From a virus: a DNA stretch of 29,552 nucleotides. The stretch's first letter is position 1, and each line of letters opens with the position of its first letter. The position numbers were made by a program, and so were the translations under genes. This document shows, piece by piece, positions 1,115 to 26,645 of the stretch. Under the pieces are notes generated by a model, which had not been told where the DNA came from, did not search any database, and saw only the letters and a program-made list of their open reading frames with translations. The DNA lies in the IMG/VR virus record IMGVR_UViG_3300007345_000172, positions 1-29,552 of that record. The stretch is one strand, 5' to 3'.

Positions 1115-3040
1115 CTATCGTGGTGTTGTAAAGTTTTTAGGTTTTATAAATCCCCTATTTTTCATATCTCTTGGTCGTTTTGCAACTTTAGCATCATTAG
1201 TTTCAGGTTTAAAACCTTCTTTCTTTGCTTCATTTACACTTATTTCTGCATTTGGGTTAGTAGCATCTGGTTTAACACCTTTAGCCATATACGTTTTACG
1301 CATCCAAAAATGCCTACACGATCCGCCTCCTTTGTAGAGCCAGACATCGTAAGTTGCAGCACCACCTTTACCCCAACCAGCATTAACAGGTTGTTTACTC
1401 ATTTGCATTATATCTTCTTTACGGTATATTTTTCTTGCTGATACCATTTTTCTACAAAACTCCCTGCTATTAGAAGAAACTGTTAATGGTGCATATTGAT
1501 AACGTACTTTAAACTTCATATCATCAGCCTCACCATCTTGTTCGCTTTTTGCATTTGATCTTGCACTACCTGTAGATGCTAAACCTACCATTTTATCTAA
1601 TGCTTCTTCTTGGTCGTAATCTACTTTGCGTTCATCTACTAAATCCCAGTTTTCTAAATCTTCATCTTCACCAAACTCATCAAGCAAATCAAATACTTTA
1701 TCATCTGTTTCAGCACTTAAATTACTTTGCTTATGTTCTTCGCAAGGCATAAACCATATCTTACCTTCGTATTCGTGTTCGTGGTAACCTTCGCATCCTA
1801 TATTTTTAGCACCTTCTATTGCCATTTCTTTTGTTGCGTATGCTAACCTGTCATCTATAATTGCAAAGTCTTTATCTACTACTTGGCTTTTTAAGGTAAA
1901 TTCTCTTTTTACACCTGTTTCTTCTTCACGTGCTTCATCTGTTATTGCATTATCTGTATCTAAAAATGCTAAAGGTTGAAGTGTTTTAAAATATAGTTTT
2001 AAACTAATACCATTAACAGCCAATATATCATCTATACAGTCCGTTATTAAGTCTTGATAGGGTTTAATAGTAATATTGTCAAAAAGTAACGCAGCGGTCT
2101 TTATTTCATCTGCATTTGATCCTAAACCATTGTTCTCGGTACGTATACCCAATAATAAAGGTGAGGTTACCCTATGTGCTACAATTAACTTATTACTACA
2201 TTCATTTGATAAATACTCATAGTGTTGAGGTGCATCGTTTAATGGTATATCATCAACTGTTGTTTTGCTTTCTGCATTGTTGTTAAATGCAATTACTACT
2301 TTTTCACCTCTTGCACCTGTAAGTTTTGACATTACATCATTCTTAACCTGCATTTGCTTTTCACGGTCTGGGATACCGTTGTTAAAGTTTACAACCTTCG
2401 TACCGCTGAAGCCATTCTGTACATCGTTTATTAGGTAATCACTTACTTCGCTTTCTAATTCAGCATATGCTAAACCACCTTGATAATCTACAGGACAATA
2501 GTAATCATATCCACTAACGTACTTTTTAACTATTTTTATTTCTGGTTCTTTACCGTTACCAAATCCAAATGCTGCTATGCGTTGAGGTTTATCTTTTGGT
2601 TTTATCTTTGTCCAATCTGGTGCATAATAGTAACCTTCTATCTCACCATCTTCATTACATTTTTCAGCACGTAGTGTTTGTCTTGGGAAGTGTTCTGCTT
2701 TATATACCTTATCATCTTTGTAAAGCACTTGAAAAGAACCTTCACCTAATAGTTTTAAATCTAATACAACCTTTTTTAAACAAGTGTTGCTTATAATAGA
2801 TCGCATTGCAGCATACTCGTTTGTTTTAGTGTTGCTATCTAAAGCATCTAACCCTTTACCGTATATCATATTAGATACACCGTTTATAATAGCGTTGTTA
2901 GTTGTAGAATTAGTATAAAGTTGTATTAAATAAGAATAGTAATCATTATCCTCACCGTAGTTTACCCAATCTTTTTGTTTGTCCTCGCTTATTTTAGGGC
3001 GGTTGTAAGAAGCTAAATTTACTATGTGTAAGTTATCCAT
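1115..3040 (-). CDS. Portal protein with C-terminal extra domain
   Basis: A 641-residue protein forming the DNA entry ring at the capsid vertex. Residues 1-360 look like the portal core: an N-terminal WVNYGEDNDYYSYLIQLY segment, then a helical clip region with HRVTSPLLLGIR (289-300) and NNGLGSNADEI (303-313), which I associate with portal proteins of Bacteroidetes phages. After an acidic linker (about 440-500) comes a second module (about 507-585) with SREFCRKMV and GGGSCRHFWMRKTY, followed by a basic tail. Portals are usually 400-550 residues, so this module is an addition. The start overlaps the previous stop by one base (TAATG). The connector follows 2 bases after its stop. The portal call is firm; the job of the extra domain is unknown. 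Confidence 0.8.
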   Translation of the reverse strand: MDNLHIVNLASYNRPKISEDKQKDWVNYGEDNDYYSYLIQLYTNSTTNNAIINGVSNMIYGKGLDALDSNTKTNEYAAMRSIISNTCLKKVVLDLKLLGEGSFQVLYKDDKVYKAEHFPRQTLRAEKCNEDGEIEGYYYAPDWTKIKPKDKPQRIAAFGFGNGKEPEIKIVKKYVSGYDYYCPVDYQGGLAYAELESEVSDYLINDVQNGFSGTKVVNFNNGIPDREKQMQVKNDVMSKLTGARGEKVVIAFNNNAESKTTVDDIPLNDAPQHYEYLSNECSNKLIVAHRVTSPLLLGIRTENNGLGSNADEIKTAALLFDNITIKPYQDLITDCIDDILAVNGISLKLYFKTLQPLAFLDTDNAITDEAREEETGVKREFTLKSQVVDKDFAIIDDRLAYATKEMAIEGAKNIGCEGYHEHEYEGKIWFMPCEEHKQSNLSAETDDKVFDLLDEFGEDEDLENWDLVDERKVDYDQEEALDKMVGLASTGSARSNAKSEQDGEADDMKFKVRYQYAPLTVSSNSREFCRKMVSARKIYRKEDIMQMSKQPVNAGWGKGGAATYDVWLYKGGGSCRHFWMRKTYMAKGVKPDATNPNAEISVNEAKKEGFKPETNDAKVAKRPRDMKNRGFIKPKNFTTPR

Positions 3041-3384
3041 TATATTGTGATAAATTCGTTTGTAGTGCTATTAGAAGTATACTCACCGCTGTTTATTGTG
3101 TAAGCTGGTAAATCTGTTTGGTTTGTACAGTATATTTTATCCATAAATACAACTGAACTACCTGAAAGTATTTTAAGTGTGTAATAAATATCTTGTTTTA
3201 CAGGAAACACCGCATTAAACCTATTGAAATATAAGTTTTGTGATATACTTGTTGTTGCTTGACTGTACACTTCTTTGTTTTGCGTTTCATCTGTTATCTT
3301 AACCGTGTAAGATGCGTTTGCAGTAAATTGTCTTGGTATAAAATCAATATTTTGTGCTGAACCACTTTCTTGTAATACTATCAT
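3040..3384 (-). CDS. Structural protein of unknown function, Ig-like (114 aa)
   Basis: A 114-residue beta-rich protein (MIVLQESGSAQNIDFIPRQF...) with alternating hydrophobic and Thr/Ser residues that suggest a small immunoglobulin-like sandwich. The ATG at 3384 is chosen over an upstream TTG at 3408, because it lies 5 bases after a late promoter element and because the longer form would read through that element. It sits between tail tube and portal genes, so a neck or head-tail joining role is possible, but I do not recognise the family. The preceding gene ends in an intrinsic terminator, so this gene, portal and connector form their own unit. Confidence 0.65.
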   Translation of the reverse strand: MIVLQESGSAQNIDFIPRQFTANASYTVKITDETQNKEVYSQATTSISQNLYFNRFNAVFPVKQDIYYTLKILSGSSVVFMDKIYCTNQTDLPAYTINSGEYTSNSTTNEFITI

Positions 3385-3389
3385 ATATA

Positions 3390-3415
3390 TACAATAAAAA
3401 AGTATCAAATTTGTT
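3390..3415 (-). promoter_or_regulatory. Late promoter-like element upstream of the 114-aa/portal unit
   Basis: Minus strand AACAA (3411-3415), 13 bases, TTATTGTA (3390-3397), 5 bases, ATG at 3384. It directly follows the intrinsic terminator at 3425-3454, so new initiation is expected exactly here. A perfect match to the main form. Confidence 0.65.
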
Positions 3416-5533: not shown

Positions 5534-6142
5534 TTATTTAAAATTTGATATTTTATTTAAAACTCTATCTAATGTAGTATTCCCTCTTTTTTGTGAATAC
5601 AGGTTTAAATTAGGTTTGTTTTCTTTTTCTGGGTTATGAGTAACCTTTTGTACTGGTTCGCTTAATTCTTCTTTTTCAGCGTAAACAGTCTTTGTAGTTG
5701 TTTCTTCTGATTTAACAGAATTTTCACCTACAGGTTCTTCAGCCATTTCTTCTTCTTTTTTAGGTAAAAGGATAGCTTTAATTTCTTCAACCATTTCTTT
5801 AACCTCTTGAAGTTCTTCTTTAGTAGCGTAATTCATTTCTTCTTTTTCAGCTTCTACTTCTTCTTCTTCAGGTGCTTCTTCAACTGCACCGATAGAAGCA
5901 ATAATACCTTCTTCTTCTACAACTAAAGTTTCACCATCTATAAGTTTGTACTCGCCTACTGGTAGTGCTACTTTTTCATCTTCGGTAACAATAAAAACTT
6001 CTGCTCCAGCTTCAAAATTTTCACTTTCTATAATTGCACCGTTCTCAAGTTCAGCTTGTGCCAACTTTACTTCTACAGGTGCTTCGGATAATTCTACCCC
6101 AAGTACCTCTTTTACTTTGTTTAACATATCTGTTGCTTTCAT
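5534..6142 (-). CDS. Scaffold-like head assembly protein (putative)
   Basis: A 202-residue, very acidic protein. Residues 25-85 form a beta-type module (AELENGAIIESENFEAGAEV, then VALPVGEYKLIDGETLVVEE). Residues about 88-140 are a Glu-rich coiled coil (EEEEVEAEKEEMNYATKEEL), followed by a polar linker and a basic C-terminus (TTLDRVLNKISNFK). Acidic helix plus basic tail is the usual design of a capsid scaffold that is lost during assembly. It is placed between the protease-led head genes and the capsid gene. The beta module resembles one found in several phage head-assembly proteins. The start is 6 bases after a late promoter-like box. Confidence 0.6.
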   Translation of the reverse strand: MKATDMLNKVKEVLGVELSEAPVEVKLAQAELENGAIIESENFEAGAEVFIVTEDEKVALPVGEYKLIDGETLVVEEEGIIASIGAVEEAPEEEEVEAEKEEMNYATKEELQEVKEMVEEIKAILLPKKEEEMAEEPVGENSVKSEETTTKTVYAEKEELSEPVQKVTHNPEKENKPNLNLYSQKRGNTTLDRVLNKISNFK

Positions 6143-6148
6143 ATATAT

Positions 6149-6174
6149 TACAATAAATTAGTAATTAGTTTGTT
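6149..6174 (-). promoter_or_regulatory. Late promoter-like element upstream of the scaffold gene
   Basis: Minus strand AACAA (6170-6174), 13 bases, TTATTGTA (6149-6156), 6 bases, ATG at 6142. It lies in the 38-base gap after the 129-residue coiled-coil gene, so scaffold, decoration and capsid can be boosted from here. Confidence 0.6.
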
Positions 6175-6571: not shown

Positions 6572-6964
6572 TTAATAATATTTATTATAATCGTTGTTAA
6601 TTTTTGTGCCTAATGATTTTAAATCATCTAATCCTTTAAAAGCATTTTGTAATAAACCATATTCTTTAGAAGCTGATGTACTTGCACCAAGTGATTTTAA
6701 TATATCTTCTAATTCTTTCATTTCTTGCTTGATATCAAATTGCATATCAGACATATCGCCAATGCTACCTTTAAGTTCTCTACCTTGTAATACTAAATCA
6801 TCAAAAGTTTTTTCAAATAATTTTAATTTAGAATCACTTTTATCTTGTATGCTTTCTGATTTATTCATTAATTTATTTGCAGAGTTAATAATTTGTGTAG
6901 ATCGTGCCAAATCAACCTTTTGTGCAGAAAACTTTTGTAGTATCTCTTTTGTTTTTGAATCCAT
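6572..6964 (-). CDS. Helical/coiled-coil head-region protein, copy 1 (130 aa)
   Basis: A 130-residue helical protein (MDSKTKEILQKFSAQKVDLA...) with heptad repeats through KLKLFEKTFDDLVLQGRELK and IKQEMKELEDILKSLGAS. The C-terminus is polar and ends NNDYNKYY. It is adjacent to, and loosely similar to, the 129-residue gene. There is no cysteine or membrane segment. The ATG is 5 bases after a late promoter-like box, supporting this start. I do not recognise a family. Confidence 0.6.
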   Translation of the reverse strand: MDSKTKEILQKFSAQKVDLARSTQIINSANKLMNKSESIQDKSDSKLKLFEKTFDDLVLQGRELKGSIGDMSDMQFDIKQEMKELEDILKSLGASTSASKEYGLLQNAFKGLDDLKSLGTKINNDYNKYY

Positions 6965-6969
6965 ATTTA

Positions 6970-6995
6970 TATAATAATATATTTAACTGTTTGTT
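6970..6995 (-). promoter_or_regulatory. Late promoter-like element upstream of the 130-aa gene
   Basis: Minus strand AACAA (6991-6995), 13 bases, TTATTATA (6970-6977; one change from TTATTGTA), 5 bases, ATG at 6964. It fills the 37-base gap after the Cys-rich gene. Confidence 0.55.
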
Positions 6996-7364: not shown

Positions 7365-8060
7365 TTATTCAGTACTAAATAATTGTTTTAGTTCTTCTAT
7401 TTTAGCTTTAGCTATTTCTTCTTTACTCATTTTAGATTGTTTTATTGGTACACAATTAGGTACTTTTTTACCGTTTTTTATTTTAGTGCCTATCATTTCA
7501 TATCCTGCTTCACAAGGTTCTTTCATTTCATCTTTTACAGGTTCGTTAGGTCTTTCTAATTTGTCAGCAAAGTAACCTTCTATTGAAAACCCTTTTACCT
7601 CACCTGCTTTTACTTTTTTCCAAACATCATCATTATTTACTTTCATAGATACCATCCAAGTACCAATAGGCACGTTTAAATCGTACATTCTACTTTTATC
7701 TTGTTCACTTTCTACTATCCAACTTTCTACAGCAGTTAAACCTTTAAGTTCTAATTGGTGTTCTAATGTTGAATTGCTTTGATTACCTTTTATAAAGAAT
7801 AATTCACTTGCTTTTCTTACAGTTGCTTGACTAAAATATATATAATACTCTTGCTCACCGTTTGTACGGTAGATAGGTTTGTTAGGTATTAAAGCAGCAC
7901 CCATAAGGATACGTTTTTCTTTATCTACTTCTGCAAGTTTAAACTCTTGGTTTTTAAGTGCTATAAAATTTTCTTCTATTGCTGGGTTTTCTACTACTGA
8001 TATTGCTTCAATTCCAGAAACCTCATCATTTTCATCTATAAAAAGTTCTACTATGTCCAT
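7365..8060 (-). CDS. Prohead maturation protease, XkdF-like serine protease
   Basis: A 231-residue protein matching the XkdF-type (S78-like) prohead protease family, which trims scaffold and capsid subunits during maturation. Visible signs: the early ISVVENPAIEENFIAL block typical of the family, GAALIPNKPIYR (54-65), STLEHQ with candidate catalytic His101, GTWMVSMKV (133-141), and VKGFSIEGYF with candidate Ser159. The C-terminal 50 residues are a polar, Lys-rich tail with CEAGYEMIG and PNCVPI. It opens the head gene group and its ATG lies 5 bases after a late promoter-like box. The family call is firm; the exact catalytic residues are inferred. Confidence 0.8.
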   Translation of the reverse strand: MDIVELFIDENDEVSGIEAISVVENPAIEENFIALKNQEFKLAEVDKEKRILMGAALIPNKPIYRTNGEQEYYIYFSQATVRKASELFFIKGNQSNSTLEHQLELKGLTAVESWIVESEQDKSRMYDLNVPIGTWMVSMKVNNDDVWKKVKAGEVKGFSIEGYFADKLERPNEPVKDEMKEPCEAGYEMIGTKIKNGKKVPNCVPIKQSKMSKEEIAKAKIEELKQLFSTE

Positions 8061-8065
8061 ATTAA

Positions 8066-8091
8066 TACAATAATTATTTATCTATTTTGTT
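8066..8091 (-). promoter_or_regulatory. Late promoter-like element upstream of the protease/head genes
   Basis: Minus strand AACAA (8087-8091), 13 bases, TTATTGTA (8066-8073), 5 bases, ATG at 8060. It overlaps the end of the tape measure gene, so head genes would be initiated separately from the tail genes. Confidence 0.65.
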
Positions 8092-16406: not shown

Positions 16407-17139
16407 CGTTTTTTAATTAACTTCTTTTCTAATTCTACTTTATCTTTTTCAAATGCTAAATACATTAAACACTTGTGGACGTTAAGCTGGGTAACCGTGT
16501 CAAACTTGGTAGCATCTCCTTTAGCAATACCATAGACCGATTGATACCAACCCCACTTTGATCCAAAGCCTCCTTCTGTTGAATAGTCAGTTTGTTCGGC
16601 AACTCCTTCTGTAAATAGTTCAGGATAGTTTGTGTTAACTCGTTGCTTAAATTGTAAAAAAAAACCATAGAACCAAACACAATATCTAAAGGCATATACT
16701 TTAGCTTGTCATTCATTCCTTTGTATTCCTCTATGTTGTACTTCTTATCTTTCTTAAATTTAACTGGTCTATATAACACGCTCATTGCTTTGTGCATATT
16801 ATCCCACTTACCCAAGTTCTCATCAAGGTCTATAAACTCACCTAATGACATATCATCAAGTACAGGTATAAATCCATACTCTACATTACCTAAACTAAAC
16901 GTAGGTACTAAACTATGCTTCTGGTCAAATATCTTGTTGAGGTGTACTACTATCTCTTGTACTGATTTGTATTTTATGTTTGCAACATCTTTTAGGTTGA
17001 GGTTACAGAATATCTCTACCATCTTTTGTAGTAAGAATGTAGATTCTTTATTTTCTTCGGTGTTTAACTTTTCAAATCTTTGATATTGATCTAAAGTTAT
17101 TTCTTTAAGTGAATCAGGTACGTTTATTTCAACTTTCAT
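16403..17139 (-). CDS. Tail assembly chaperone, long form made by -1 frameshift
   Basis: A -1 slip at nine T residues (16656-16664) would join the first 161 residues to an 84-residue alternate end, giving 245 residues. The alternate end has GGFGSKWGWYQSVYGIAKGD and TQLNVHKCLMYLAFEKDKVE, which look like real conserved protein and end on the ATGA shared with the next gene. The -1 frame has a stop just upstream and no ATG, GTG or TTG before these motifs, so it can hardly be reached except by frameshifting. This is the G/GT arrangement of tail chaperones: the long form likely bridges tail tube subunits and tape measure. An indel error in the T run is an alternative, but both frames look coding. 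Confidence 0.65.
16465..17139 (-). CDS. Tail assembly chaperone, short (unshifted) form
   Basis: A 224-residue protein. The start MKVEINVPDSLKEITLDQYQ is chosen over an ATG at 17190, because that upstream ATG lies inside a terminator hairpin, and because the chosen ATG is 5 bases from a late promoter box. The body (LDQYQRFEKLN, YGFIPVLDDMSLGEFIDLDE, KYMPLDIVFGSMVFFYNLSN) is a helical protein family I associate with Bacteroidetes phage tail modules, between neck and tail genes. The unshifted end (ALDQSGVGINRSMVLLKEML) also looks conserved in style. It lies about 6.4 kb from the tape measure, whereas chaperones normally sit directly beside it. Confidence 0.65.
   Translation of the reverse strand: MKVEINVPDSLKEITLDQYQRFEKLNTEENKESTFLLQKMVEIFCNLNLKDVANIKYKSVQEIVVHLNKIFDQKHSLVPTFSLGNVEYGFIPVLDDMSLGEFIDLDENLGKWDNMHKAMSVLYRPVKFKKDKKYNIEEYKGMNDKLKYMPLDIVFGSMVFFYNLSNELTQTILNYLQKELPNKLTIQQKEALDQSGVGINRSMVLLKEMLPSLTRLPSLTSTSV
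16656..16664 (-). other. Slippery T9 run, candidate -1 ribosomal frameshift site
   Basis: In frame the minus strand reads G-GTT-TTT-TTT-TAC. A T-TTT-TTT heptamer allows both tRNAs to re-pair one base back, moving ribosomes to the frame TTA-CAA that stays open for 84 codons. RNA polymerase slippage on nine T residues would have the same effect. Confidence 0.65.
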
Positions 17140-17144
17140 ATTAA

Positions 17145-17170
17145 TACAATAAATTAATTGATGTTTTGTA
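17145..17170 (-). promoter_or_regulatory. Late promoter-like element upstream of the tail chaperone
   Basis: Minus strand TACAA (17166-17170; first base differs from AACAA), 13 bases, TTATTGTA (17145-17152), 5 bases, ATG at 17139. It directly follows the terminator at 17172-17201, so it is the only room for re-initiation of the tail operon. Confidence 0.6.
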
Positions 17171-17624: not shown

Positions 17625-17654
17625 AATTATAATTTTAATTAAACTTTGTTTATA

Positions 17655-17685
17655 CAAATATAAACATTTTTTTAACATTTACTAA
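17655..17685 (-). promoter_or_regulatory. Host-type (Bacteroidetes) promoter upstream of the membrane protein
   Basis: Minus strand TTAG (17682-17685), 19 bases, TATATTTG (17655-17662). The second box matches TAnnTTTG perfectly; the first differs from TTTG by one base and overlaps the terL stop codon. It shares the string AAAAAATGTTTATATT with the site at 21856, and the ATG follows 30 bases downstream. Confidence 0.65.
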
Positions 17686-18878: not shown

Positions 18879-19112
18879 CTAATCCTCCATAAATAACGGA
18901 ATGTCCTCGTTAATGGTAATATCCCTTGTTTCTCTTGGTTTACCAGCATAATAGTTATAGTACAGTTGTACAAATTTAAAATCACCTTTTTCTACACCTG
19001 TTTTTAATGCTTGGAATGCTGCATCTTCTAATGGGCTTAATTTCTCTATTAAATTAACCTCATCTGCTTTAGAAGGTCTACCTGCTCCATCTCTTTTTCC
19101 ACCGTGTGCCAT
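18879..19112 (-). CDS. terS: Terminase small subunit (putative)
   Basis: A 77-residue protein starting MAHGGKRDGAGRPSKADE. The K-R-x-G-A-G-R-P-S-K signature is common at the start of small terminase subunits of Bacteroidetes and other phages and likely contacts DNA. The rest is helical (LSPLEDAAFQALKTGVEKGD) and ends in an acidic tail (NEDIPLFMED). It is shorter than most TerS proteins (120-180 residues), so it may be a minimal form. It directly precedes terL and is the first gene of the late block, 26 bases after a late promoter-like element. Confidence 0.7.
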   Translation of the reverse strand: MAHGGKRDGAGRPSKADEVNLIEKLSPLEDAAFQALKTGVEKGDFKFVQLYYNYYAGKPRETRDITINEDIPLFMED

Positions 19113-19138: not shown

Positions 19139-19164
19139 TACAATAAAAAAACTAACTAATTGTT
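19139..19164 (-). promoter_or_regulatory. Late promoter-like element upstream of terS
   Basis: Minus strand AACAA (19160-19164), 13 bases, TTATTGTA (19139-19146). Here the ATG follows after 26 bases rather than 5, which argues that the motif is a promoter and not a ribosome signal at fixed distance. It overlaps the end of the DnaA-like gene. Confidence 0.6.
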
Positions 19165-19168
19165 AATT
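19145..19168 (-). terminator. Possible weak terminator after the DnaA-like gene
   Basis: Minus strand AATTAAC, loop AATTA, GTTAGTT, then a run of T. The stem is seven pairs, nearly all A-T, and overlaps the stop codon of the gene, so it is weak. It would mark the end of the early block. Confidence 0.3.
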
Positions 19169-19547
19169 GGTCTTTATTAATTTGTTCTGTTAGCTTCTTT
19201 AGTTCTTTGTATTGTTTCTCATAGAAACCTTCTAAACTTTCTGCTGTTTTAAAATCTTCAGGGTTAGCATTAACTGCATCTTGTACCCTTTTGTTTATTT
19301 TATTATAATCTTCTTTTAATTGTATATCGTGTTTTAACCAATGTGGTATAAGCCTTTCAAAGTGTAGAACTGTTGAATGATCCCTGCCCATTGTTTTACC
19401 TATAGAAGATAATGACATCCTTGTGTATTGTCTTGTAAGGTAAAAGTATATTCCACGTGCTTCTACGTATTCACGTTTTCTTGTTTTTGTAGTTATATCT
19501 AACTTTAGATGTTGTTCTACTATTTCTTGTATTAGTGTTGCACTCAT
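19152..19547 (-). CDS. Free-standing DnaA domain IV-like DNA-binding protein
   Basis: A 131-residue protein. Residues about 22-70 match the C-terminal helix-turn-helix domain of DnaA: KREYVEARGIYFYLTRQYT, then MSLSSIGKTMGRDHSTVLHF, whose G-R-D-H-S-T-V-L-H (54-62) is the DnaA-box recognition signature. No ATPase domain is present, since host DnaA is about 450 residues and this begins right at domain IV. The rest is a helical, acidic tail that could oligomerise. It may steer host replication to phage DNA or block the host origin; this is inference. It closes the early block, next to terS. Confidence 0.8.
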   Translation of the reverse strand: MSATLIQEIVEQHLKLDITTKTRKREYVEARGIYFYLTRQYTRMSLSSIGKTMGRDHSTVLHFERLIPHWLKHDIQLKEDYNKINKRVQDAVNANPEDFKTAESLEGFYEKQYKELKKLTEQINKDQLTIS

Positions 19548-21837: not shown

Positions 21838-21855
21838 TGTTCTTTGTTTATTACG

Positions 21856-21886
21856 CTAATATAAACATTTTTTAAACAATTACAAA
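21856..21886 (-). promoter_or_regulatory. Host-type (Bacteroidetes) promoter upstream of the exonuclease unit
   Basis: Minus strand TTTG (21883-21886), 19 bases, TATATTAG (21856-21863), against the consensus TTTG-19 to 21-TAnnTTTG: the first box is exact and the second has two changes at its end. It shares AAAAAATGTTTATATT with the site at 17655. The leader is about 15 bases. Confidence 0.6.
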
Positions 21887-22205: not shown

Positions 22206-22586
22206 TTAAATTATTTCTGCTTCGCTTACATTTAACAAAGCAATTTCTTTTGGTATCTTTTTATTGTTCTTAAATTCTGTTGTGGTATTATGGTATTGTA
22301 TTTCCCAAACAGGATCAACAATATACAAATTAAATCTATATACTCCAGAAGGTGTAGAATTAACATACATAGGTATATCTAAATTATCATCACACTTTGC
22401 TATCATAGCATCGTACTTCTTCTTTTCTATAAGTAAAGTATCGTAGTGTACTGTTCTACATTTTAACTCAATGCGGTGATAGGTTTTAGGACTGTAACAA
22501 TCCCACCTGCTCATTTGGCTTTTTGCTTTTACTAAATCAGGATAACAACAAGAAACTAAATACTCAAAAAGTTCCTTTTCTTTCAA
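22206..22586 (-). CDS. Small PD-(D/E)XK-like nuclease fold protein (putative)
   Basis: A 126-residue protein. W-D29-C followed by RIE40-L-K42-CR and a Lys-rich helix (LIEKKKYDAM) has the D...E-x-K pattern of a restriction-type nuclease; strands around it (VYRFNLYIVDPVWEIQ) fit. The start is read as TTG at 22586, whose TTGA overlap with the previous stop matches the helicase/membrane-protein junction; no ATG is available before residue 25. It may be a resolvase-like enzyme or an inactive relative. Moderate confidence in the fold, low in the activity. Confidence 0.5.
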   Translation of the reverse strand: MKEKELFEYLVSCCYPDLVKAKSQMSRWDCYSPKTYHRIELKCRTVHYDTLLIEKKKYDAMIAKCDDNLDIPMYVNSTPSGVYRFNLYIVDPVWEIQYHNTTTEFKNNKKIPKEIALLNVSEAEII

Positions 22587-22999
22587 TCGTTGTACTGTTT
22601 AAATATTTTATTTAGTTTATCATATACACCATTTAAAAAACAACTACCACAACTTGTTGCAACAGCAGTATCATTAAATACACGGTTGTATATTAATATT
22701 AGTTCGTTTTGTTGTACAGGTGTTACTGTTGATCTTTTTACACTAAAGAAAGTATCTAAATAGTTATACTCATCTTCTGTTAAGCATTCAATCTTTTTAC
22801 TTGGAAACATTTTGTTAAGCGTTTCTTTTCTTTCATCACATCCACAATCATCACCAAGTACAAACTTTGCTGCTTTATCAATGCCTACTTTTTTAAATGC
22901 TTTCTCAACTGTATCACCTAAACCACTACTTGCTGCTTCGTGGTTCTTTTTCCAAGCCTTATATTTTTTACTTCTTTTATCACCTTTAAATTCGTTCAT
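22583..22999 (-). CDS. Conserved Cys-pair protein of unknown function (138 aa)
   Basis: A 138-residue protein with a basic start (KGDKRSKKYKAWKKNH), then GLGDTVEKAFKKVGIDKAAK, a DDCGCDERKE block (C52, C54), ECLTEDEYNYL (C72) and TSCGSC (C117, C120) near the end. The two Cys pairs could bind zinc. I recall similar proteins in flavobacterial phages without assigned function. The ATG lies 5 bases past the sigma-like gene. The next gene begins with TTG overlapping its TGA. The role is possibly tied to the sigma-like factor or replication; unproven. Confidence 0.6.
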   Translation of the reverse strand: MNEFKGDKRSKKYKAWKKNHEAASSGLGDTVEKAFKKVGIDKAAKFVLGDDCGCDERKETLNKMFPSKKIECLTEDEYNYLDTFFSVKRSTVTPVQQNELILIYNRVFNDTAVATSCGSCFLNGVYDKLNKIFKQYND

Positions 23000-23004
23000 A
23001 GTCT

Positions 23005-23556
23005 TTATTTTATTTGCTCAAAATCATTATTAATATAGTCATCATAATCTTCTTGAAACTTTTCTTTTAATTCGTGTTTTGCGTTTTTTAATGTATTAAA
23101 TATACTTACCCAACTTATGTTAGTTTCTTTTGCTATTCCTCTTATGCTTAAATTTGAATCTCTATAAAGTTGAAAAAGTCTACGCTCATACCATCGCCAG
23201 TCTTGTATATGGTCATCAATCATTGTACAAATTTTGTTGTAGGCTATTTGCTCATCCATTTCCGTATCGTCTGGAATTTCGTAGGTATGCTCTTCATTGT
23301 CAAGTGAAACTTTTTTAATTTTTCTTTTATTCTTATAAAATTGAAAGTATAAACTGCGCAAAGAAAAAAATAAATACCCCCTGCTAACTTCACCATTCTT
23401 AATAATTTTTTCTTCATTTGCATACTTATATAACACAAGGTAACATTCCTGCACTAAATCTTCAGCGTATTCATATTCGCCAAAACCCTTTATTATATTA
23501 ACCCATTCAGTATGCCTTTCAGCTACCTTTTCTAACCATTGTGCGGATTTGCCCAT
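23005..23556 (-). CDS. Sigma-70/ECF-like transcription factor
   Basis: A 183-residue protein with two sigma regions. Region 2: YAEDLVQECYLVLYKY (30-45), the core-binding pattern, followed by RGYLFFSLRSLYFQFYKNKR (59-78), which fits the -10 reading helices. Region 4: the helix-turn-helix SIRGIAKETNISWVSIFNTL (137-156) preceded by an aromatic helix (WRWYERRLFQLY). The order and length fit an ECF-type sigma factor. It should bind host RNA polymerase and redirect it, most simply to the late promoter-like elements seen only before late genes. It overlaps the membrane-protein gene upstream by 25 bases. The domain call is good; the target is inference. Confidence 0.75.
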   Translation of the reverse strand: MGKSAQWLEKVAERHTEWVNIIKGFGEYEYAEDLVQECYLVLYKYANEEKIIKNGEVSRGYLFFSLRSLYFQFYKNKRKIKKVSLDNEEHTYEIPDDTEMDEQIAYNKICTMIDDHIQDWRWYERRLFQLYRDSNLSIRGIAKETNISWVSIFNTLKNAKHELKEKFQEDYDDYINNDFEQIK

Positions 23557-24792: not shown

Positions 24793-24805
24793 TAATTAAA
24801 GATAT

Positions 24806-24830
24806 AAAAAAAGGGGGTAATTAAACCCCC
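24806..24830 (-). terminator. Intrinsic terminator after ssb
   Basis: Minus strand GGGGGT, loop TTAATT, ACCCCC, then seven T residues. It is the strongest G/C stem in the window. Only about 13 bases separate the T tract from the start of the 46-residue gene. Confidence 0.9.
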
Positions 24831-25728: not shown

Positions 25729-25828
25729 TGCTTTGTTGAGTTAAAATTAATTGGTTCTTTAATTGTTTTATATCGTATTGCAGTTCTTGTACCTTGCCAT
25801 AGAGTTCTGCTCTTGTATAATTGTTCAT
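25709..25828 (-). CDS. Very small coiled-coil protein (39 aa)
   Basis: A 39-residue protein, MNNYTRAELYGKVQELQYDI, then KQLKNQLILTQQSNE, ending RNKH. It is a single amphipathic helix with a Leu/Ile heptad pattern. Its end overlaps the start of the annealing protein gene by 20 bases. Short helical partners of recombinases occur, but there is no evidence beyond the overlap. It is the first gene after the terminator at 25867-25901. Confidence 0.55.
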   Translation of the reverse strand: MNNYTRAELYGKVQELQYDIKQLKNQLILTQQSNERNKH

Positions 25829-25866
25829 ATTGTAAAGATACAAAAAAATAATTTATGATAATTATA

Positions 25867-25901
25867 AACAAAAAAGAAGGGCATCATTTCTGACACCCTT
25901 C
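25867..25901 (-). terminator. Intrinsic terminator after the NinG-like gene
   Basis: Minus strand GAAGGGTGTC, loop AGAAAT, GATGCCCTTC (10 bp with two G-T pairs), followed by TTTTTTGTT. It lies 30 bases past the stop codon. Confidence 0.88.
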
Positions 25902-25930: not shown

Positions 25931-26329
25931 TCAAGTAATACTTTTAAGCCTATCGTTATTTAACTTTGCTTCATAATCTTTTATCATTTCTTCCAGTTCG
26001 TAATTGGTAAACTTAACAGTTTCTTTACTTTTCAAATATAATACTTCTGAAGCATCTTTACCTAAAAAAAGTGAGTATTTATATTGCTCACCCTGTTTAA
26101 ACATATTGCATCCTATACATTGACTTTTAACATTACGTTCATCCCATCTTGTACTGTAATGTTTTCTACTCATAAAATGTCCAGCTTGTATTTCTTTCCA
26201 ATGTTTTACTACACCACAAGTTACACAAGTACAGTATCCATTTTTATCAGCACTACTTATTCTTATATATTTACTAAATACTGTATCAAGTTTCTTTACA
26301 AGTTTACTTCTTGAAAGTTTTTTAGGCAC
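25931..26329 (-). CDS. ninG: NinG-like recombination protein (HNH/Cys-type)
   Basis: A 132-residue protein with a Cys cluster C33-x-C35-x-x-C38, then QAGHFMSRKHYSTRWDERN (48-66, with H51) and QCIGCN (C71, C74), the pattern of the lambda NinG (Rap) family, thought to resolve or cut branched DNA. The start codon is GTG at 26329, because no ATG exists upstream of the Cys motif. It overlaps the 82-residue gene by 8 bases. A strong family match. Confidence 0.85.
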   Translation of the reverse strand: MPKKLSRSKLVKKLDTVFSKYIRISSADKNGYCTCVTCGVVKHWKEIQAGHFMSRKHYSTRWDERNVKSQCIGCNMFKQGEQYKYSLFLGKDASEVLYLKSKETVKFTNYELEEMIKDYEAKLNNDRLKSIT

Positions 26330-26570
26330 TTGTTAAATCTTTTTCATTCATATGTGCTTCTAATATATAACCATCTAAAGGACTTATAATAGATATTGCT
26401 TTATATATTTTTCTACTAATAGCTTTTACTTTTTTCTTTTCTGTAGTTGTTGAATCAATACCTAACATACAATACATATGAGCATCTTCCATTAGTAGTT
26501 CATCTACTTTTCTTTTAATACTCCAAGTTTTGTAACCTTGTATTTTTCTAATTTTATCTTCTGTAATCAT
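26322..26570 (-). CDS. Hypothetical basic protein (82 aa)
   Basis: An 82-residue, Lys-rich, helical protein (MITEDKIRKIQGYKTWSIKR...). The pattern GYKTWSIKRKVDELL then KKVKAISRKIYKAISI could bind nucleic acid. First gene of the early block, behind the host-type promoter at 26614-26645. Family not recognised. Confidence 0.6.
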   Translation of the reverse strand: MITEDKIRKIQGYKTWSIKRKVDELLMEDAHMYCMLGIDSTTTEKKKVKAISRKIYKAISIISPLDGYILEAHMNEKDLTSA

Positions 26571-26613: not shown

Positions 26614-26645
26614 CAAAGGTACTCGCTTTTTTTTTAAGATGTAAA
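26614..26645 (-). promoter_or_regulatory. Host-type (Bacteroidetes) early promoter
   Basis: Minus strand TTTA (26642-26645), 20 bases, TACCTTTG (26614-26621): the second box matches TAnnTTTG perfectly, and the first differs by one base. The leader to the ATG at 26570 would be about 36 bases. A second, weaker candidate (TTTG-21-AATATTTG) lies just downstream. The region 26571-26670 holds no gene. Confidence 0.6.

Follow-up and report, generated by a model that had tools for sequence, protein, structure and literature searches.

A phage-encoded ECF-type sigma factor as the probable reader of late promoters in a marine flavophage

The window analyzed here is a 29,552-nt IMG/VR virus record (31% GC) whose genes lie on the minus strand, and the locus at 23,005–23,556 raises the question of whether a small sigma-like protein encoded by the virus itself reads the two-part motif that precedes the late genes. 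The initial annotation had proposed this as a simple early-to-late switch in a 30-kb genome; the early-to-late split proved sound, but the window is a 29.5-kb contig without end repeats, and the relatives with end repeats (n = 5) are near-complete at 31.3–32.6 kb. The closest isolates are the Inhavirus phages P12024S and P12024L (marine Persicivirga/Nonlabens host; portal protein identity, 40%), so that the host of the window virus is very probably a flavobacterium. A big uncultured ‘group 1’ surrounding these two phages was described previously (Nishimura et al. 2017, PMC5332604), and the window virus probably belongs to it.

The sigma protein and its relatives

The ORF at 23,005–23,556 (minus strand) encodes a 183-aa protein with sigma-2 and sigma-4 domains only, as in ECF (group 4) sigma factors, for which 150–200 aa are expected. 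Region 2 covers residues about 12–80 and contains the region 2.2 motif YAEDLVQECYLVL, region 4 covers residues about 98–167, and the recognition helix ISWVSIFNTLK lies at residues about 147–157. Profile searches revealed a match to phrog_1740 ‘RNA polymerase sigma factor’ (1.3e-7), a PHROG family also matched by 18 of 20 relatives, and matches below the curated cut-offs to the NCBIfam families TIGR02985 Sig70_bacteroi1 (1.4e-12; 48 bits vs 126) and TIGR02937 sigma70-ECF (4.4e-8). The window sigma scored under the Pfam cut-off; its ortholog from the relative G007 cleared that of Sigma70_r2 (25.5 vs 24). Searches of PDB sequences with phmmer and hmmsearch returned antibody noise, a weak FliA match and nothing else, and therefore a comparison of folds was needed. 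The AlphaFold model consisted of two helical domains (pLDDT 74.5, pTM 0.44; inter-domain placement uncertain), and its top 20 Foldseek matches in the PDB were all ECF sigmas (sigmaL, sigmaH, sigmaE, SigW, AlgU and others) or sigma chains of M. tuberculosis initiation complexes. Whole-chain TM-scores were low (about 0.35) because of the uncertain domain placement; region 2 alone superposed on E. coli sigmaE region 2 at 3.4 A. Family and fold, both computed directly, bear out the small two-region sigma protein that had been recognized from visible motifs, as a two-domain ECF type, and we infer that it associates with core RNA polymerase. It is filed here as an ECF-type, phage-encoded late sigma.

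Relatives of the sigma are encoded in at least 486 IMG/VR stretches; a peptide-pattern scan of bacterial genome contigs found none. Distinct full-length proteins (n = 138) were collected. Invariant residues of the sigma alignment clustered in the helix-turn-helix of region 4.2 (S137–R139, I141, A142, E144, T145, I147–V150, I152 and T155–K157), and the region 2.2-like motif AEDLVQE was conserved across relatives. G017 (L212/L213), L142 and G034 have a second, distant sigma-like frame in addition to the main sigma.

Late and early promoters in the window

The late motif reads [A/T]ACA-N17-TTGTA/TTATA, equivalently AAC-N18-TTGTA or WACAAA-N15-TTGTA. A weight matrix was trained on 27 sites of relatives, with the window and its close clade left out. 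Its seven best coding-strand matches in the window were all located directly upstream of late-block gene starts and none in the early block, and 7 coding-strand sites scored >12 bits, whereas Markov shuffles yielded 0.42. Another 3 sites >12 bits lay on the non-coding strand; therefore, the score alone does not discriminate, whereas position before gene starts does. Whole-genome dyad counts (AACA-Nk-4mer), which ignored gene starts, were tried and failed to make the motif stand out in the majority of genomes, so that its recognition needs position or a trained matrix.

AAC-N18-TTGTA is present at 3415, 6174, 8091 and 19,164, TAC replaces AAC at 17,170, and TTATA variants occur at 540 and 6995. 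The putative late promoters, all on the minus strand, are AACA-N17-TTGTA at 3390–3415 (5 nt before the ATG at 3384 of ORF 3040–3384), 6149–6174 (6 nt before the ATG of ORF 5534–6142) and 8066–8091 (5 nt; ORF 7365–8060); AACA-N17-TTATA at 515–540 (5 nt; ORF 294–509; 16.0 bits) and 6970–6995 (5 nt; ORF 6572–6964); TACA-N17-TTGTA at 17,145–17,170 (5 nt before the ATG at 17,139 of ORF 16,465–17,139); and AACA-N17-TTGTA at 19,139–19,164, which is separated by a 26-nt interval from the ATG of the putative small terminase gene terS (18,879–19,112). Thus the ATG lies 5–6 nt past the -10 at 6 of the 7 sites. The AAC of the upstream box, previously proposed as a -35 element about 18 nt from TTGTA, was found at the window sites and in relatives, with a spacing of N18 in the window that is exact across relatives. 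Such an AAC-type -35 about 16–18 nt from a -10 has the form of an ECF-like promoter, which the sigma would read.

Early starts carry a different box. The host-type box TACCTTTG, of the form TAnnTTTG, is located at 26,614–26,621 (minus strand) upstream of ORF 26,322–26,570, and TAnnTTTG precedes this gene in 42 of 49 distinct relatives, compared with 7.6% at random positions. A -7-like box, TATCTTTA, occurs on the same strand at 25,833–25,840, 4 nt before the ATG at 25,828 (TAHHTTTR in 36 of 40 distinct relatives), and at 24,797–24,804, where it heads the sigma operon (ORF start 24,792; strict form in 16 of 52 relatives) and is preceded by a terminator-like hairpin (24,813–24,830). TAnnTTTG is the -7 consensus of Bacteroidota hosts (PMC6847099, PMC9723704), and the late boxes lack it, in agreement with the earlier view that early promoters are host-like and late ones are not. 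Phage-specific promoters were found on late genes only and host-type ones on early genes; the host-type boxes at the 26,322, 25,828 and 24,792 starts make the early-host/late-phage split sound. A scan for sigma-70 TTGACA/TATAAT promoters was uninformative (47 found vs 59.9 expected). The segments 24,797–24,830 and 25,833–25,901 form compact modules of a terminator-like hairpin, the TATCTTTA box and an ATG 4 nt later, and their transcripts would also be leaderless. An AT-rich stretch is present in two copies (83% alike; 17,650–17,685 and 21,851–21,886) with TATATTTG/TATATTAG; the two copies may be host-type promoters, and one lies within the late block.

Taken at the level of sequence, it is highly probable that the phage ECF-type sigma, expressed early from host-sigma-A-type promoters, drives the late operons with the host core enzyme. 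The sigma would be made early and join the host core RNA polymerase; its region 4.2 would read the -35 [A/T]ACAAA and its region 2 the -10 TTGTA/TTATA, 17 nt apart; and the sigma-bearing polymerase would then turn on the terminase, head, neck and tail operons. A further early protein could be needed as co-activator.

In another reading, the sigma A holoenzyme uses the late boxes with a phage activator, and the phage sigma is of minor importance. Two widely conserved companions of the sigma could supply such an activator. The first is the 138-aa Cys-containing ORF 22,583–22,999 (minus strand), a candidate partner immediately downstream, which showed only weak PHROG matches and adjoins the sigma (within 120 nt) in 168 of the 182 loci where it was found. 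The second is ORF 19,152–19,547, conserved and positioned upstream of the terS promoter. We regard this reading as unlikely, since the late boxes carry no host TAnnTTTG -7 but show the geometry of a -35/-10 pair at a fixed distance of 17 nt, and a dedicated sigma accounts for both boxes without extra parts. ORF 22,583–22,999 is absent from Inhavirus, and about 60 of its residues resemble proteins of a Microcystis phage; the 131-aa product of ORF 19,152–19,547 has a DnaA-domain-IV-like motif, GRDHSTVLH (by eye), and a weak PHROG replication match.

Distribution of the late motif and its co-variation with the sigma

In the relatives, wherever TTGTW lay 4–7 nt before an ATG, ACA ended exactly 17 nt upstream in 67 of 67 distinct late upstream regions, and the pair was found in 0 of 313 early and 0 of 178 operon-internal upstream regions. 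The gap between the boxes is fixed while the spacer sequence drifts. Ahead of terS this 26-nt unit is found 23–31 nt from the ATG and is therefore not tied to the start codon. Its usual position 5–6 nt ahead of the ATG would suit a translation-start or RNA-level signal instead of a promoter, but the displaced terS unit and the fixed gap across a drifting spacer make this scarcely credible.

A motif-first scan of IMG/VR viral contigs was chosen to avoid sampling through the sigma only. It revealed that 104 of 109 motif sites precede orthologs of one and the same set of six late genes, 103 of these 104 aligning at residue 1–2, and that each of the 11 motif contigs at least 24 kb long encodes the sigma. 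Another 8 motif contigs, all of them partial, have no sigma gene, and 7 of these do not include the portion of the early block where it lies; in the fragment G051, 4.4 kb upstream of g20870 contain no sigma, possibly since the contig ends there. A scan of 257 Gb of bacterial and archaeal genomes for the same pattern gave 31 scattered matches, of which 4 were followed by an ORF of at least 60 aa, none homologous; this chance-like scatter gives no sign of a host regulon. Motif, spacing, late-gene restriction and co-occurrence with the sigma were all obtained by direct computation, and sequence comparison by itself gives good support to the previously suggested link between the sigma and the late promoters.

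Across relatives neither the -35 [A/T]ACA nor the gap of 17 nt (16 nt in Inhavirus) varies, and the recognition helix in region 4.2 is near-invariant alongside the constant AACA. The -10, in contrast to the near-fixed -35 and region 4.2, shifts by clade with the sigma, reading TTGTW, GTTTTATAAA, TTATTATAAA, GTTTATAYTA or CGTTA, which answers the co-variation check that had been proposed with the initial annotation. When these classes, defined by eye before labelling, were placed on the sigma tree, they required 4 changes, the minimum possible. Comparison of same-genome trees gave 6 changes for terL vs 4 for the sigma, 5 for terS vs 3, 4 for g16465 vs 4, and 4 for g22583 vs 3; the advantage of the sigma tree over terL and terS is thus small, and g16465 gives none. 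One relative, G008 (L081/L082), has a terL 85% identical to that of the window yet a sigma and promoters of another class; its other genes are about 27–56% identical, and terL has been exchanged between clades, as judged from these identities. This co-evolution of -10 and sigma, itself a computed result, is what direct reading would predict. As proof of direct reading it was rejected, because the relatives share ancestry and part of the co-variation is expected without direct contact.

A host alternative (ECF) sigma might instead read the late motif, with the phage sigma serving, for example, to redirect host transcription; several flavobacterial ECF sigmas indeed use a CGT -10 (PMC9723704), resembling the Inhavirus CGTTA. 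The scatter of the exact motif in cellular genomes, the presence of the phage sigma in every long contig that carries the motif and the tracking of the phage sigma tree by the -10 class make this very unlikely and favor recognition by the phage sigma.

Late transcript starts and known phage sigma factors

If TTGTA is the -10, the base that follows it is the earliest possible start of transcription, and the 5′ leader would be at most 5–6 nt at most late starts. In phiEco32 and 7-11 the start lies 6–9 nt from the promoter element (PMC8948821), and the same rule would place the late start at about the A of the ATG. ORFs 7365–8060 and 16,465–17,139 contain no further Met for 35 residues or more; therefore, translation of both must begin at the ATG given above. 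Most late mRNAs are expected to be leaderless or nearly so. Leaderless phage transcripts are already known (PMC5312081), and in F. psychrophilum just 5.5% of the mRNAs mapped lack a leader (PMC9723704); near-leaderless late mRNAs would nevertheless be unusual for hosts of this kind, in which the majority of mRNAs are leadered (PMC6847099).

The principle of such a switch is already known from phiEco32 and 7-11, and the window sigma is an independent, common marine instance. Salmonella phage 7-11 gp47 recognizes GTAAtg-(16)-aCTA in front of late genes (PMC8948821), and the two systems share a phage sigma on the host core, bipartite late promoters before structural genes, host-sigma early promoters and a similar distance from element to start. 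However, 7-11 belongs to much larger, unrelated enterobacterial phages with other boxes (WACAAA-N15-TTGTA in the window), whereas in the window the ATG follows 5–6 nt after the -10 and the sigma resembles Bacteroidota ECF sigmas. phiEco32 gp36 is likewise an ECF-like phage sigma for middle/late genes, and its tAATGTAtA resembles the window TATTGTATA, but it uses a single-element promoter and has no region 4 homology (PMC8948821); hhalign against the window sigma gave a probability of 4.5 over 35 columns of region 2.2 only, that is, no significant homology. Among curated profiles the Bacteroidota ECF family TIGR02985 matched best and shares the two-domain ECF architecture; unlike in that family, no anti-sigma or membrane partner was recognized for the window sigma.

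It seems rather likely that a very common marine flavophage group has independently acquired a Bacteroidota-type ECF sigma with a systematically leaderless late regulon, in which the -35/region-4 pair remained fixed through several changes of -10 specificity, so that matched sigma-2/-10 pairs form a series in nature. The joint drift of the -10 and of sigma region 2, against an unchanging -35, would provide a data set for decoding ECF specificity, and the sigma/promoter pair could serve as an orthogonal expression part for Bacteroidota. The switch would probably explain the timing of the life cycle in ~31-kb, widespread and largely uncultured marine Bacteroidota viruses, and with the motif and sigma as a reference point, early and late genes could be told apart in hundreds of contigs.

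The nearest counterparts are the Inhavirus gp33/gp35 proteins, annotated ‘Sigma-70 region 2’, which are homologous to the window sigma (hhalign probability 93). No published promoter work on Inhavirus was found in the literature searched. Its gene neighborhood is of a similar type and AACA-N16-CGTTA occurs upstream of late genes, whereas its sigma is shorter (159 aa), its -10 is CGTTA and its gap is 16.
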